From: Siderastrea siderea
Lineage: Eukaryota > Cnidaria > Anthozoa > Scleractinia > Rhizangiidae
DNA: 64,000 nt
Direction of reading: 5' to 3'
Assembly: GCA_964030785.1 (NCBI GenBank)
Contig: OZ034975.1
Location: forward strand, 46,855,069-46,919,068
This document shows, piece after piece, positions 22,001-33,000 of this stretch. The stretch's first letter is position 1. Every line of letters starts with the position of its first letter. The notes under the pieces are model-generated. The model had not been told where the DNA came from. It saw nothing but the letters and a program-made list of their open reading frames with translations, and ran no database searches. The position numbers and the translations under genes were made by a program.

Positions 22001-25000
22001 CTTTTTGGAACGATAAATTCATCTTACGTTTTTTGTGTGATCTTGAGACCCAAAAACGAATGAGAAATGACGAGTGTGGAACCTACTTGAAAGCGTTTGA
22101 TAATCGATACGTTAGTAGTAACACGAGTAAGACGAAATTTCGGCGCATGGCAGTTGTAGGTCAAACGAGAGCCAGTTTGTTAGCCTGCGTAGCTGGCGGT
22201 TTTGTCTCGCGCGCGAAGACTAAGTTTTGGCGGCGGAGACGACATAAGCAGCGCAAGCCGCTCAACGAGCGTAAATTCGTCTCCTCCCCATTCCTCTCGA
22301 GGCTTTGTCACTTGTTCTCCGCCGCTCAAACTTTGCCTTGGCGCAAACAATCCCACCAGCTACGTAGGCTACAGTTTGTGAACACTCGCTAACTGTTGGA
22401 GACTTGGCCTTTGACTTAACCCGAGACCTTTGTAGTCTCGGTACGTATTCTCTCATGTCTTCCAAGATGCGAAAGAGAGCTGGGTAATGTGTTTTTCAAT
22501 ATCCAAACACGTTAAGTCCTAGCGCATGCCTTGACCACCACACGTGTTACCGCTGAATCCCAGCAGTTAAAAAAAACGTCTTAAAATACGTTTGCCAAAA
22601 CATCTATTGTATGACCGTCTGACTACTACCTTCTGCTACTTTCCAGCTTGAAAAACAAAAAGAATCATACTTCGAAAATAATCACAATCACTCTTTTTCA
22701 TTGAATTCCGTTAAATTTACGTGCAAGGTAGAAGTGGCTACTCATTAGCTATTCCATGCCATAGCACTTGAATTTTCCTAGAATGTGGTAGCCCTTCTCG
22801 TCAGCGACATTATTAGGGCCGTTTGACCCTGTATCTCCAAACCTGAGCTCTTTGACTGGAAGTTGTGACTTGTCAGTGAGGAGACCACTGTCTACACGCC
22901 ATTCTCCGTCATTCTTATCACAGTTGCACGCCTCACTGGAGTCTGCACATGAATTGGTCATTCCGCATGCGCACTTGTTACTACCAGGAGAGGCTCCACC
23001 CCAGTACGTCATCTTGTTTGAACTTCGTGACACCCACCAGCCATGAGGATCGTTGGCAAACCAAAATAAAGAGCCATAGCACTCATATTTGATGAATTGT
23101 TCACAGTGAGTAGAGACGTCAGTAAGTTTGGCCAGCTGAGACAAGCTTGCTCCTGAGTAGTGAATACTCCGTGAGTATGCACCCTTTCCATCATAGCCGT
23201 CCACCAACGTTCTGCTTTCACTATCGTGACTTACAACTGTCACGCCAACTCCATTCTTGTCACTCATATCGCAGTAAACTGTGAACGGCGCCAGGCCTCC
23301 CTCGCCGTCTGGATCAATGACGTAATTTCCACTAGAACTGCTGACATATTTTCGTATCACAGAACAGGAAGATAGAGTGACTGGAGTCTTCATCTCTACA
23401 CTTGCTTCGATTGTTGTCAGAGCATTGGTCGCTCTACAGGTGTATGTTCCAGCATGCGATTTTTTCACTTTAGGAATAACCAGTGTGTTGTTTTGTAGAA
23501 TGTTAGAGTCCGCAGGAAGTGAAGCCTTGCCATCCATCAGCCATGTGACTGTATGGCTCAGGTCACTCTCGGCCACACACGACAGTCCCACAGGATACCC
23601 AAGGAAAGGATTTATTTCCTTGGGAGGACGAACTAAAAACCGCAGAGAGAAAATCATCATCTGCATTGCACTTTCAGCGCTTCCCAGAATATTGTCTGCT
23701 CTACATATATATATTCCCCAATCCTCTTTTTTCACATTGTGGATTTTAAGGGCTCCATTCTTCACTGTAGTTCTATCAGGAAGACTGCCAATAGACTTCG
23801 ACCACTGAATGTTAGGTCGCGGCTGGCCAGTAGCACTGCAAGCGATAGTGATATTTTGTCCTTCCTCCGCCACCAGTCGATAAGAAGACATCAAAATCTG
23901 AGGAGGGACTGTTGAAACAAGTTGAATAAGCTATTGAATGATGATGCATTCTCTAATTAAATCAAAGTGCGCAGTTAGCCTTTACAATGTTTTTGCATCT
24001 AATTACAGTAGCATTAGAATTGACGTATGGACAACAGTGCACGAGATTAGAACGGATTGCAAACACCATGCTTTGAACTTTCAAGCAATGTGTAGAATCT
24101 CATTCATTCATTTGTTCCGGCTCGCTCGATCGCTCGCTAGCTTGCTCGTTCCTACGTTCGTTCGAACCTTTATTCAATTGTTAGTTCATTCATGCACTCG
24201 CTCCTTCCTTCCTTCCCTTCCTGCCTTCCTTCATTCTTTCTCTCAGTCAATCAGTCAGTCAGTCAGTCAGTCAGTCATTTATGTAGACAAGAAATCGTGA
24301 CACTCACACTGCACTTTTAGTGGCGCTGAGGCGTTGGTATTTCCCAGCAAGTTTTGCGCGCTGCACCTGTAAACTCCAGCATCTTCTGGTTTGACTCTTT
24401 TTATAATAAGAGCGGTACTGGGTCCTATCACGTGACGGCCAAGCGGAAATGACGAGTTAATCTTTGACCACGTGACCTTCGGAGTTGGATGTCCGTCTAC
24501 TGTGCATTTCAAGACTGCTGTTTGACCTTCGTTGACTGTCACAGCAATGGGAGCCTCCACGAGACGGGGAGCCGAGAGGGACTTCCCGGGCTCACCTTTC
24601 TCTCCCTTCACTCCCTGGGGGCCTCTAGGCCCCGGTGGCCCCATGTCACCCGGTACTCCTGGATCTCCCTTTGGCCCCACTGGTCCTGGAGGGCCCTGGG
24701 GCCCATGCTTTCCAGGTCTCCCCGGTCGTCCCCGGCGGCCTGGTTTCCCTGTTGGTCCTGCACGGCACAGCACGTGATCTTTAGCACAGATTTGGTTTTG
24801 CAGCAGACGAAGCTCGTCTCTGATCAGCAGTTGTACGTAAGACGGTGTAAGAGTAAAGCTTACTCGTGAAGTAGAAGATAAAACACTTCTTTTATGTCTT
24901 AAATTGCTCTCCTCGCCACCTGAAAGAAGTAACAAACAAACAAATTCATTTATTTATCTGATTGCGCAAATTTCAATCTGCGAGATTTTGAAATGCCGTG

Positions 25001-30093: not shown

Positions 30094-33000
30094 TGTGTTA
30101 ATATTTAGTGGCATTGAACGTAATAAAACTGTTCTTATTTCTGAAGGCAGTTACCAAAACTTTCGAAATAAACTGGGTTTTTTTCCTCTTAAATTTTAGA
30201 AGGGTAATGGGTTAACTGAAGATTAACAAAGATAATTAATGCAATGTCTTGCAAATAGTTTGCTGGCTCCAACTGAGTCCGATTGAAAATTAAGAGATGG
30301 TGTCAATTTTCTAATTAGCAACATTTCGAACTGGGTTAAAATCGCCAAAATCATATTGTTGGAAAGGGGACAAATTCGCTACTCATTAGCTATTCCGTAG
30401 CATTTTAATTTTCCTAGAGTGTGGTAGCCCTTCTCGTCAGCGACATTATTGTTGCCGTTTGTCCCTGTATCTCCAAACCTGAGCTCTTTGACTGGAAGTT
30501 GTGATTTGTCAGTGAGGAGACCGCTGTCTTCTCGCCATACTCCGTCATTCTTATCACAGTTGCACGCCTTACTGGACTCTGCACACGAGTTGGTCATTCC
30601 GCATGCGCACTTGTTACTACCCGGTGAGGCACCACCCCAGTACGTCATCTTGCTTGAATCTCGTGATACCCACCAGCCAATTATACTGTAGGTACTCCGC
30701 AACCAAGAACCATAACATTCATATTTAATGAACTGTTCACAGTGTGTGGAGACGTCAGTAAGTTTGGCCAGCTGAGACAAGCTTGCTCCTGAGTAGTGAA
30801 TACTCCGTGAGTATGCACCACGACCGTCATATCCATCCACTAATGTTCTGCTTTCACTGTCGTGACTTACAACTGTCACGCCAACTCCATTCTTGTCACT
30901 CATATCGCAGTATACTGTAAACGGCGCAAGGCCTCCCTCGCCATCTGGATCAATGACGTAATTTCCGCTAGAACTGCTAGAACTATGTTTGCGTATCACA
31001 GAGCAGGAAGGATTGAGTGGAGTTTTAATCTTTGCACTTGCTTCGATAGTTGTCAGAGCATTGCTCACTCTACAGGTGTATGATCCAACGTGCGAATTTT
31101 TCACACTTAGAATAACCAGTGTGTTGTTTTGTAAAATGCTCGAGTCGTGAGGGAGTGACGGTTTTCCATCCTTCAGCCACGTAACAGTAGGGTTCAGGTC
31201 ACTCTCGGCTACACACGACAGACTAACAGGGAACCCAATCACAGGAGTAAGTTCTTTTCGAGGACGAACTAAAAACCGCAGACGAGAGAAAACCACCAAA
31301 TGAATTGCATCTTCGGCGGTTCCCAGTTCATTCTTTGCTTTGCATATGTATGTTCCCCCGTCTTTTCTTTTCACGTTGTATACTTTCAAGGCTCCATTCT
31401 TTACCACAGTTCTATCAGGTGGACTACCGATTGCTTTTGACCACGTGATGCTGGGCTGCGGCTGACCAGCAGCACTGCACGCGATGGTGACATTTTGTCC
31501 TTCCTCAGCCAGCAGTCGGTTGGAAGACAGCATAAGCCGAGGAGCAACTGTTGTGCATAATAAACAAAGTATTGAATAATGATGTAATGCCTCAAGAGAG
31601 TAAATCAAGTTTTTTTCATAGCCTTTCATACTCTTTTAAATTTAATCTAATTACAACTGCCCTTAAGTAGAACATATTCGTGAAATGTAATCTAATAACA
31701 CTTTTGCCGTAAAATAGCACATATGGTGAAACGTACCGTTAGATGGCCAAGATTTAAGCAGGTGGCAAAATTAATGATCTCAAGCTTCGGAATAGTATGT
31801 AGAATTTTCATTCGTTCCCTCGTTGGGTTCCCTCCGTCTGTCCTTCCGTTATTTATTCGCCATTATCAGCTTTTGTGTGACCTTATAAGCTCCGTACAAC
31901 TCGTAGCAGACTGAGCGCTGCACGCCTTGTTGGCTGTGAACTCATGTAAATACTCGACTTATCGAAATATTGACAAAAAAATGTGAAACTTACAATGCAC
32001 TTTTAATGGCGCTGAGACGTTGGTTCTTCCCAGCAGGTTTTGCGCGCTGCACGTGTAGACTCCCGTATCTTCTGACTTGGCATTCTTTATTAACAGAGCA
32101 GTACTGGGTCCTATGACGTGACGTCCAACCGGAAGGAAAGAGTTAATCTTAGACCACGTGACCTTGGGAGGTGGATGTCCGTCTATTGTACATTTCAAGA
32201 CTGCTGTTTGACCTTCGTTGACTATGACACCAACGGGAGCCTCTATGACACGGGGAGCTGAGAGGGATTTCCCCTGCTCTCCTTTCTCTCCCTTCACTCC
32301 CTGGGGGCCGCTAGGCCCCGGTCGCCCCATATCACCCGGTACTCCTGGATCTCCCTTTATTCCCATTGGTCCTGGAGGGCCCTGGGGGCCATGCTTCCCA
32401 GGTCGTCCCGGTCGTCCTCGGCGGCCTGGTTTCCCTGTTGGTCCTGCACGGCACAGCACGTGATCTTTAGCGCAGATTTGGTTCTTCAGAAGACGAAGCT
32501 CGTCTCTGATCAGCAGTTGTACGTAAGACGGTGTCAGAGTGGGACTTACTTGTGCAGTCGCAGATGAAACACTTCTTTTCTGTCTTGAAATGCTCTCCTC
32601 GTCACCTGAAAGAAGTAACGCTGGAGTTAGCCCGAAATGCTTTCGTTGTTCACCCTCCTTACCTAGAGTTTCATATACTTAATATATATCTATCGTATAA
32701 CTCCGTGTTGTGGTTTTAAATGAGCGATGGAGCATTTATTCTGAGTAGAAGATGTTTGAATGACTTGTTCTTCCCATATGCGAAGTGCAGTCTAGCCGCT
32801 ACAGAAGCACAGACCATCTTACCTTTTCCTCCTTGCCAATTCTCGCCTGTCATATCTCCCCACCGTTTGTAATTCTGTTGTATTTTTCGCAGTATTTCCG
32901 CCTCCATCTGATCACAGACTTTTGTCGTGTGTGAAAGCAACCGCTGTTGTTCCTGTATTCTGAGCTGCACTTGAATAAGTGTGATACAACACGCGATGGA

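Follow-up and report, generated by a model that had tools for sequence, protein, structure and literature searches.

The fold of the procollagen C-propeptide is known mainly for assembling collagen, and the FREPs of Biomphalaria are secreted proteins not known to contain collagen. Cnidarian ficolin-like proteins (CniFL) combine collagen, Ig and fibrinogen domains, are defined by the Pfam Fibrinogen_C domain and number 0-7 per transcriptome, according to the accessible portion of PMC5094078. FREP variants arise via gene conversion and point mutation, as given in the available sections of PMC7588048, and variation inside single snails is reported for FREPs. The window considered here, the whole analysed stretch of 64,000 nucleotides from the stony coral Siderastrea siderea (contig OZ034975.1, positions 46,855,069 to 46,919,068), carries two genes, receptors A and B, that can be set beside both systems.

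Likeness to CniFL, as far as the accessible portion of PMC5094078 describes it, lies in the collagen helix, the mostly three Ig domains with one transmembrane segment, the C-terminal head, the cnidarian host and the existence of several paralogues. Likeness to the FREPs lies in Ig domains joined to a globular head within a diversified invertebrate family (PMC7588048, available sections). The differences lie in the head and in number. The head of A and B is COLFI-like by predicted fold and falls below the Fibrinogen_C cut-off, whereas the FREP head is a fibrinogen domain, and at least 151 domain matches, fragments included, occur in this one genome, in contrast to the CniFL range per transcriptome given above. 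By head domain the A/B family is neither CniFL nor FREP, and it works like variable invertebrate receptor families.

A third collagen-Ig receptor gene (37618-45183, + strand) lies head-to-head with B and comprises a hydrophobic exon, a collagen stretch (39713-39847) and three Ig exons. It ends in Fibrinogen_C proper (250.9 bits, within 44497-45183), and a CniFL-type gene thus adjoins the two COLFI-like ones. Elsewhere in the window, the list of open reading frames includes a long repeat of low complexity (48236-49540), which stays open in several frames of each strand, and a simple-sequence tract (35541-36006, - strand) that reads as runs of proline, alanine, threonine and isoleucine.

Anatomy of receptors A and B

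Receptors A and B are built on a common three-exon plan (Table 1). Joined at conserved GT/AG sites, the exons of each give a single open frame, of 677 residues in A and 680 in B, and both genes are intact. Reading from the N-terminus, the order is short tail, hydrophobic segment, stalk, RxKRS motif, collagen helix of 60 residues, three Ig domains (the first encoded by exon 2, the others by exon 3) and the loop-bearing C-terminal domain. The collagen domain (PF01391) scores 41.6 and 41.0 bits in A and B, respectively, with a cut-off of 27.2. This anatomy, including the orientation in the membrane that it suggests, points to type II membrane receptors. As a collagen helix implies trimers, the chains are probably trimeric. 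The motif between stalk and collagen is RHKRS in A (24885-24899, - strand) and RQKRS in B (32571-32585, - strand). Both resemble a furin site, so that, going by the motif, the ectodomain might be shed.

Table 1. Coordinates in the window of the exons, head domains and variable loops of receptors A and B.
Feature	Coordinates	Strand	Remarks
Receptor A exon 1: tail, hydrophobic (transmembrane) segment, stalk	27594..27855	-	conserved GT donor, open joined frame
Receptor A exon 2: RHKRS motif, collagen triple helix (24579-24758), Ig1	24308..24919	-	
Receptor A exon 3: Ig2, Ig3, C-terminal domain	22749..23908	-	
Receptor B exon 1: tail, hydrophobic (transmembrane) segment, stalk	32823..33084	-	
Receptor B exon 2: RQKRS motif, collagen triple helix (32265-32444), Ig1	31994..32605	-	
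Receptor B exon 3: Ig2, Ig3, C-terminal domain	30379..31547	-	
COLFI-like C-terminal domain of receptor A, stop codon included	22749..23369	-	
COLFI-like C-terminal domain of receptor B, stop codon included	30379..31008	-	Pfam COLFI 20.9 bits, below cut-off; 88% identity to that of A
Variable loop of receptor A, LFWFANDPH	23043..23069	-	
Variable loop of receptor B, WLRSTYSII	30679..30705	-	

An earlier note on this window had called the C-terminal domain of both receptors a fibrinogen domain; it should be read as a COLFI-like domain. In A, Fibrinogen_C (PF00147) reaches 17.0 bits, under its cut-off of 22, over residues 2-48 only, and in B no match to it is listed at E 0.1. The predicted fold of the head is that of the C-propeptide. 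Pfam COLFI (PF01410) nevertheless gives A 21.0 bits, and both receptors stay under the cut-off of 26.2; among homologues, P0158 (41.2) and P0159 (33.9) pass it and P0125 (24.5) does not. Compared with the C-propeptide of fibrillar procollagens, the A/B domain is 20-22% identical and follows the Ig domains rather than the collagen helix. A sequence search for a solved relative, made with a distant copy, found 11 homologues and nothing convincing (best E 0.22). An earlier model, covering most of exon 3, reached block pLDDT of 31-66 in the C-domain and was left aside for that domain. The fold search made with it listed Ig-containing entries, and Ig structures likewise stood among the best 60 shown for profiles that include Ig domains.

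Structural modelling, proposed earlier as a check on whether the loop is exposed, predicts it to be a coil between two strands, at 88-98 and 111-113, with block pLDDT of 79 versus 95 and 96 alongside. Such a coil may lie at the surface of the domain. The loop starts four residues past the cysteine equivalent to collagen Cys152. In collagens, variable sequence of the petal region sets trimer specificity (PMC5353611, in its accessible portion), and with a COLFI-like domain the variable stretch of A and B could in the same manner decide which chains trimerise, so that co-expressed paralogues stay unmixed, as in fibrillar collagens. This chain code is improbable, as Asp126-129 and Arg142, the collagen residues given for the chain recognition sequence, precede Cys152 whereas the loop comes after its equivalent, and as the A/B domain has no cysteine at the positions aligned with the interchain Cys47 and Cys64 of collagen I (numbering and residues from the accessible portion of PMC5353611).

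A hypervariable loop across the family

What had drawn attention to the locus was a loop differing at every position between two otherwise near-identical domains, and this observation is confirmed at the positions in Table 1. Nine of nine loop residues differ between A and B, as do 15 of the 27 bases, and identity is 93.2% over the 192 aligned residues outside the loop. Over the 201 positions of A's domain that align without a gap, the two receptors differ at 22, and the loop accounts for nine of these; with 22 differences placed at random, a run of nine appeared in none of 200,000 shuffles. Among 19,701 pairs of 199 homologues (79 home-genome copies together with the best 120 of 3167 outside proteins matching A's domain), 18,415 have loops that are at most one third identical or unequal in length, and within those 18,415 the A/B pair ranks sixth in scaffold identity. 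The loop DNA aligns without a gap, which rules out a frameshift as the source of the nine differences. Alternative splicing or exon swapping is unsupported, the loop lying within a coding exon that also holds Ig2 and Ig3. A donor for B's loop was not found elsewhere in the genome; its 27-mer occurs once in a search allowing up to three mismatches in 27.

The home genome (830.9 Mb in 402 contigs) contains 68 GFP-family matches, almost all of them arrayed on two contigs, against zero in 14 control genomes, as would suit a stony coral. It was searched for further copies of the domain. From 110 loci taken, the 27 partial domains were dropped and, from the 83 full ones, four distant copies (L104-L107), leaving 79. 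These carry 70 distinct loops of 7-11 residues, and the best 120 of the 3167 outside proteins carry 107 distinct loops of 6-12 residues. Across all 199 sequences, the nine-residue window of highest entropy is exactly that of domain positions 113-121, with 2.86 bits versus a median of 0.84. A second stretch, at positions 192-203 (22797-22832 in A, - strand), is also variable in length and sequence across the family, and length varies to a lesser degree at positions 138-146.

Loops of nine residues roughly follow the pattern x-L-[LWF]-[FY]-x-[NSG]-[NDS]-P-[YHF], from which B's loop deviates. Throughout the family the loops are 21% F/W/Y and contain no cysteine, and with the positional pattern this makes them unlike a plain unconstrained spacer. 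Loops can be retained as well as replaced: P0001-P0003, outside near-relatives of A, have 94.8% scaffold identity and keep seven of the nine loop residues, whereas P0012, the nearest relative of B among the matches listed, has 95.8% scaffold identity and a different loop of seven residues. Several close paralogue pairs have identical loops. Discordance between nearest neighbours by loop and by scaffold is unremarkable (20 of the 79 copies for the loop versus 7-16 for four control windows). The loop is genuinely hypervariable, on the COLFI-like head of receptors that form a large family and, as the most variable part of that family, it may be where the animal diversifies recognition.

Selection and recombination

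An excess of nonsynonymous change in the loop, anticipated for a wider alignment, is present. In 15 disjoint nearest pairs (scaffold pS <0.2, equal loop lengths) pN is 0.132 in the loop and 0.042 in the scaffold (p 2e-10), and loop replacement also exceeds scaffold silent change (pS 0.089, p 0.018). In the nine closest pairs (pS <0.1) loop pN is 0.082, above the scaffold pN of 0.027 (p 3e-4) and not significantly above the scaffold pS of 0.051 (p 0.13). For A and B alone, loop dN is 1.14 (13/22.2) and loop replacement exceeds scaffold silent change with p 0.0055, in a pair that was picked for looking extreme. Loop length differs in 13 of 26 pairs with scaffold pS of 0.1-0.45.

Codon-model rates were estimated on a fixed tree for 25 copies with nine-codon loops, 15 with ten-codon loops and 53 of the 79 copies. 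Pooled loop omega in these sets is 0.74, 1.40 and 0.86, respectively, none significantly different from 1. With the silent rate of the loop set equal to that of the scaffold, the ratio of loop replacement to scaffold silent rate is 1.26 in the nine-codon set (test of equality, p 0.084), 2.92 in the ten-codon set (p 3e-15) and, depending on the alignment, 2.61 in the 53 copies (p 4e-29). The silent rate of the loop exceeds that of the scaffold (p 0.012 and 0.005 for the two sets of uniform loop length, 3e-12 for the 53 copies), which may reflect recombination, misalignment or local mutation; recombination raises both silent and replacement rates when the tree is fixed. A per-site test gave LRT >2.71 at 20, 49, 74, 113, 130, 158 and 167, none of which survives strict correction for the 195 sites tested. 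Before correction, fast-changing sites of the domain are thus also found at 74, 158 and 167. In the paralogues L031 and L046 the loop has changed beyond the neutral expectation (p 8e-6), in a pair that is mosaic: their DNA is identical at residues 14-69, 57% identical in the loop and 95% identical at residues 160-214, and the loop of L046 is nearer to that of L014 (0.80) than to that of L031.

The suggestion that selection diversifies the loop is supported in part: replacement change is clearly in excess there relative to the scaffold, but pooled tests do not show an omega above 1. The pooled values, the variation in loop length, the single loop site out of nine (113) with beta above alpha at LRT >2.71 and the result for the nine closest pairs would all suit a surface connector of no importance, drifting almost neutrally between two rigid strands and taking no part in recognition. 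Such relaxed constraint is unlikely, as the loops keep a positional pattern rich in aromatics and free of cysteine, as, in the 15 close pairs and the ten-codon set, replacement in the loop outruns silent change in the scaffold, and as L031 and L046, mosaic though they are, exceed the neutral expectation.

The earlier note read the likeness of the A and B scaffolds as the outcome expected of gene conversion, with selection diversifying the loop; on such a model selection would protect the differing loops. Scaffold dS is 0.32 (30.5/116.7) and dN 0.035, so that near-identity is, judged from substitutions, a matter of protein-level constraint. By exon, dS comes to 0.36 (exon 1), 0.26 (exon 2) and 0.42 (the whole of exon 3); the introns of A and B give no blastn match, and stretches of about 200 bp upstream of exon 1 do match. 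The longest run shared by A and B is not unusual (p 0.20). Silent change beside the loop in this pair is 2.3-fold that elsewhere, on few sites and equalled in 4 of 135 windows, but over 35 disjoint paralogue pairs no such peak is seen (ratio 0.92, interval 0.67-1.16). For the five C10 copies, where only 31 sites are informative and power is low, the PHI test gave no signal (p 0.42); of the nine remaining C10 pairs, B-L005 and L004-L005 share rather long runs (p 0.010 and 0.021, before correction for ten pairs). PHI did detect recombination in the 53 copies (p 0.002), in fifteen C4 copies at 22.0-22.4 Mb (p 0.004) and in a further ten C4 copies, most of them at 17-18 Mb (p 0.002), and the mosaic of L031 and L046 is of the same kind. 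Recombination is therefore detected in parts of the family, but conversion as the homogeniser of the A and B scaffolds is very improbable.

A candidate germline repertoire

The reading that we favour, with moderate confidence, is of trimeric type II receptors having a constant head framework and a fast-changing loop, which as a germline repertoire bind external ligands. Purifying selection holds the framework of the head nearly constant, and the loop of 6-12 residues would be allowed or driven to change fast by substitutions and in-frame length changes, to which recombination between paralogues would add in parts of the family. The family would then constitute a repertoire, encoded in the germline, of heads that differ in their loops and most likely bind different external ligands, be they microbes, symbionts or other individuals. 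Binding would be multivalent, with avidity, each chain contributing three Ig domains and a COLFI-like head. External-ligand recognition is the best explanation of the anatomy and the variation together, and from these ligand binding and selection for diversity are what we infer. Of the interpretation first offered for this locus, the diversified loop is supported by its variability, length variation and replacement excess, and gene conversion of the A/B scaffold is not supported.

Invertebrates are not known to have antibodies. A broader proposition, put forward tentatively as a possibility, is that the procollagen C-propeptide fold has been recruited in stony corals as the head of a large set of germline receptors, in which a single hypervariable loop, comparable to those of antibodies, is diversified through selection and paralogue recombination, and that surveys based on fibrinogen, TLR, NLR or C-type lectin domains have missed this repertoire. 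In the open-access literature searched, as far as its text was accessible, no paper was found describing the A/B family or its loop, and the family is not shown in the accessible portions of reports on coral tandem duplication (PMC10236652, PMC12314368), the red coral skeletome (PMC7853314) or cnidarian receptors (PMC8260672).

The question that the finding serves is how long-lived corals tell apart symbionts, pathogens and neighbours. It supplies a concrete candidate, with more than 80 full domain copies in one genome on a common framework with one variable loop, and makes it possible to test binding with swapped loops and to survey a stretch of 27 bases across populations.
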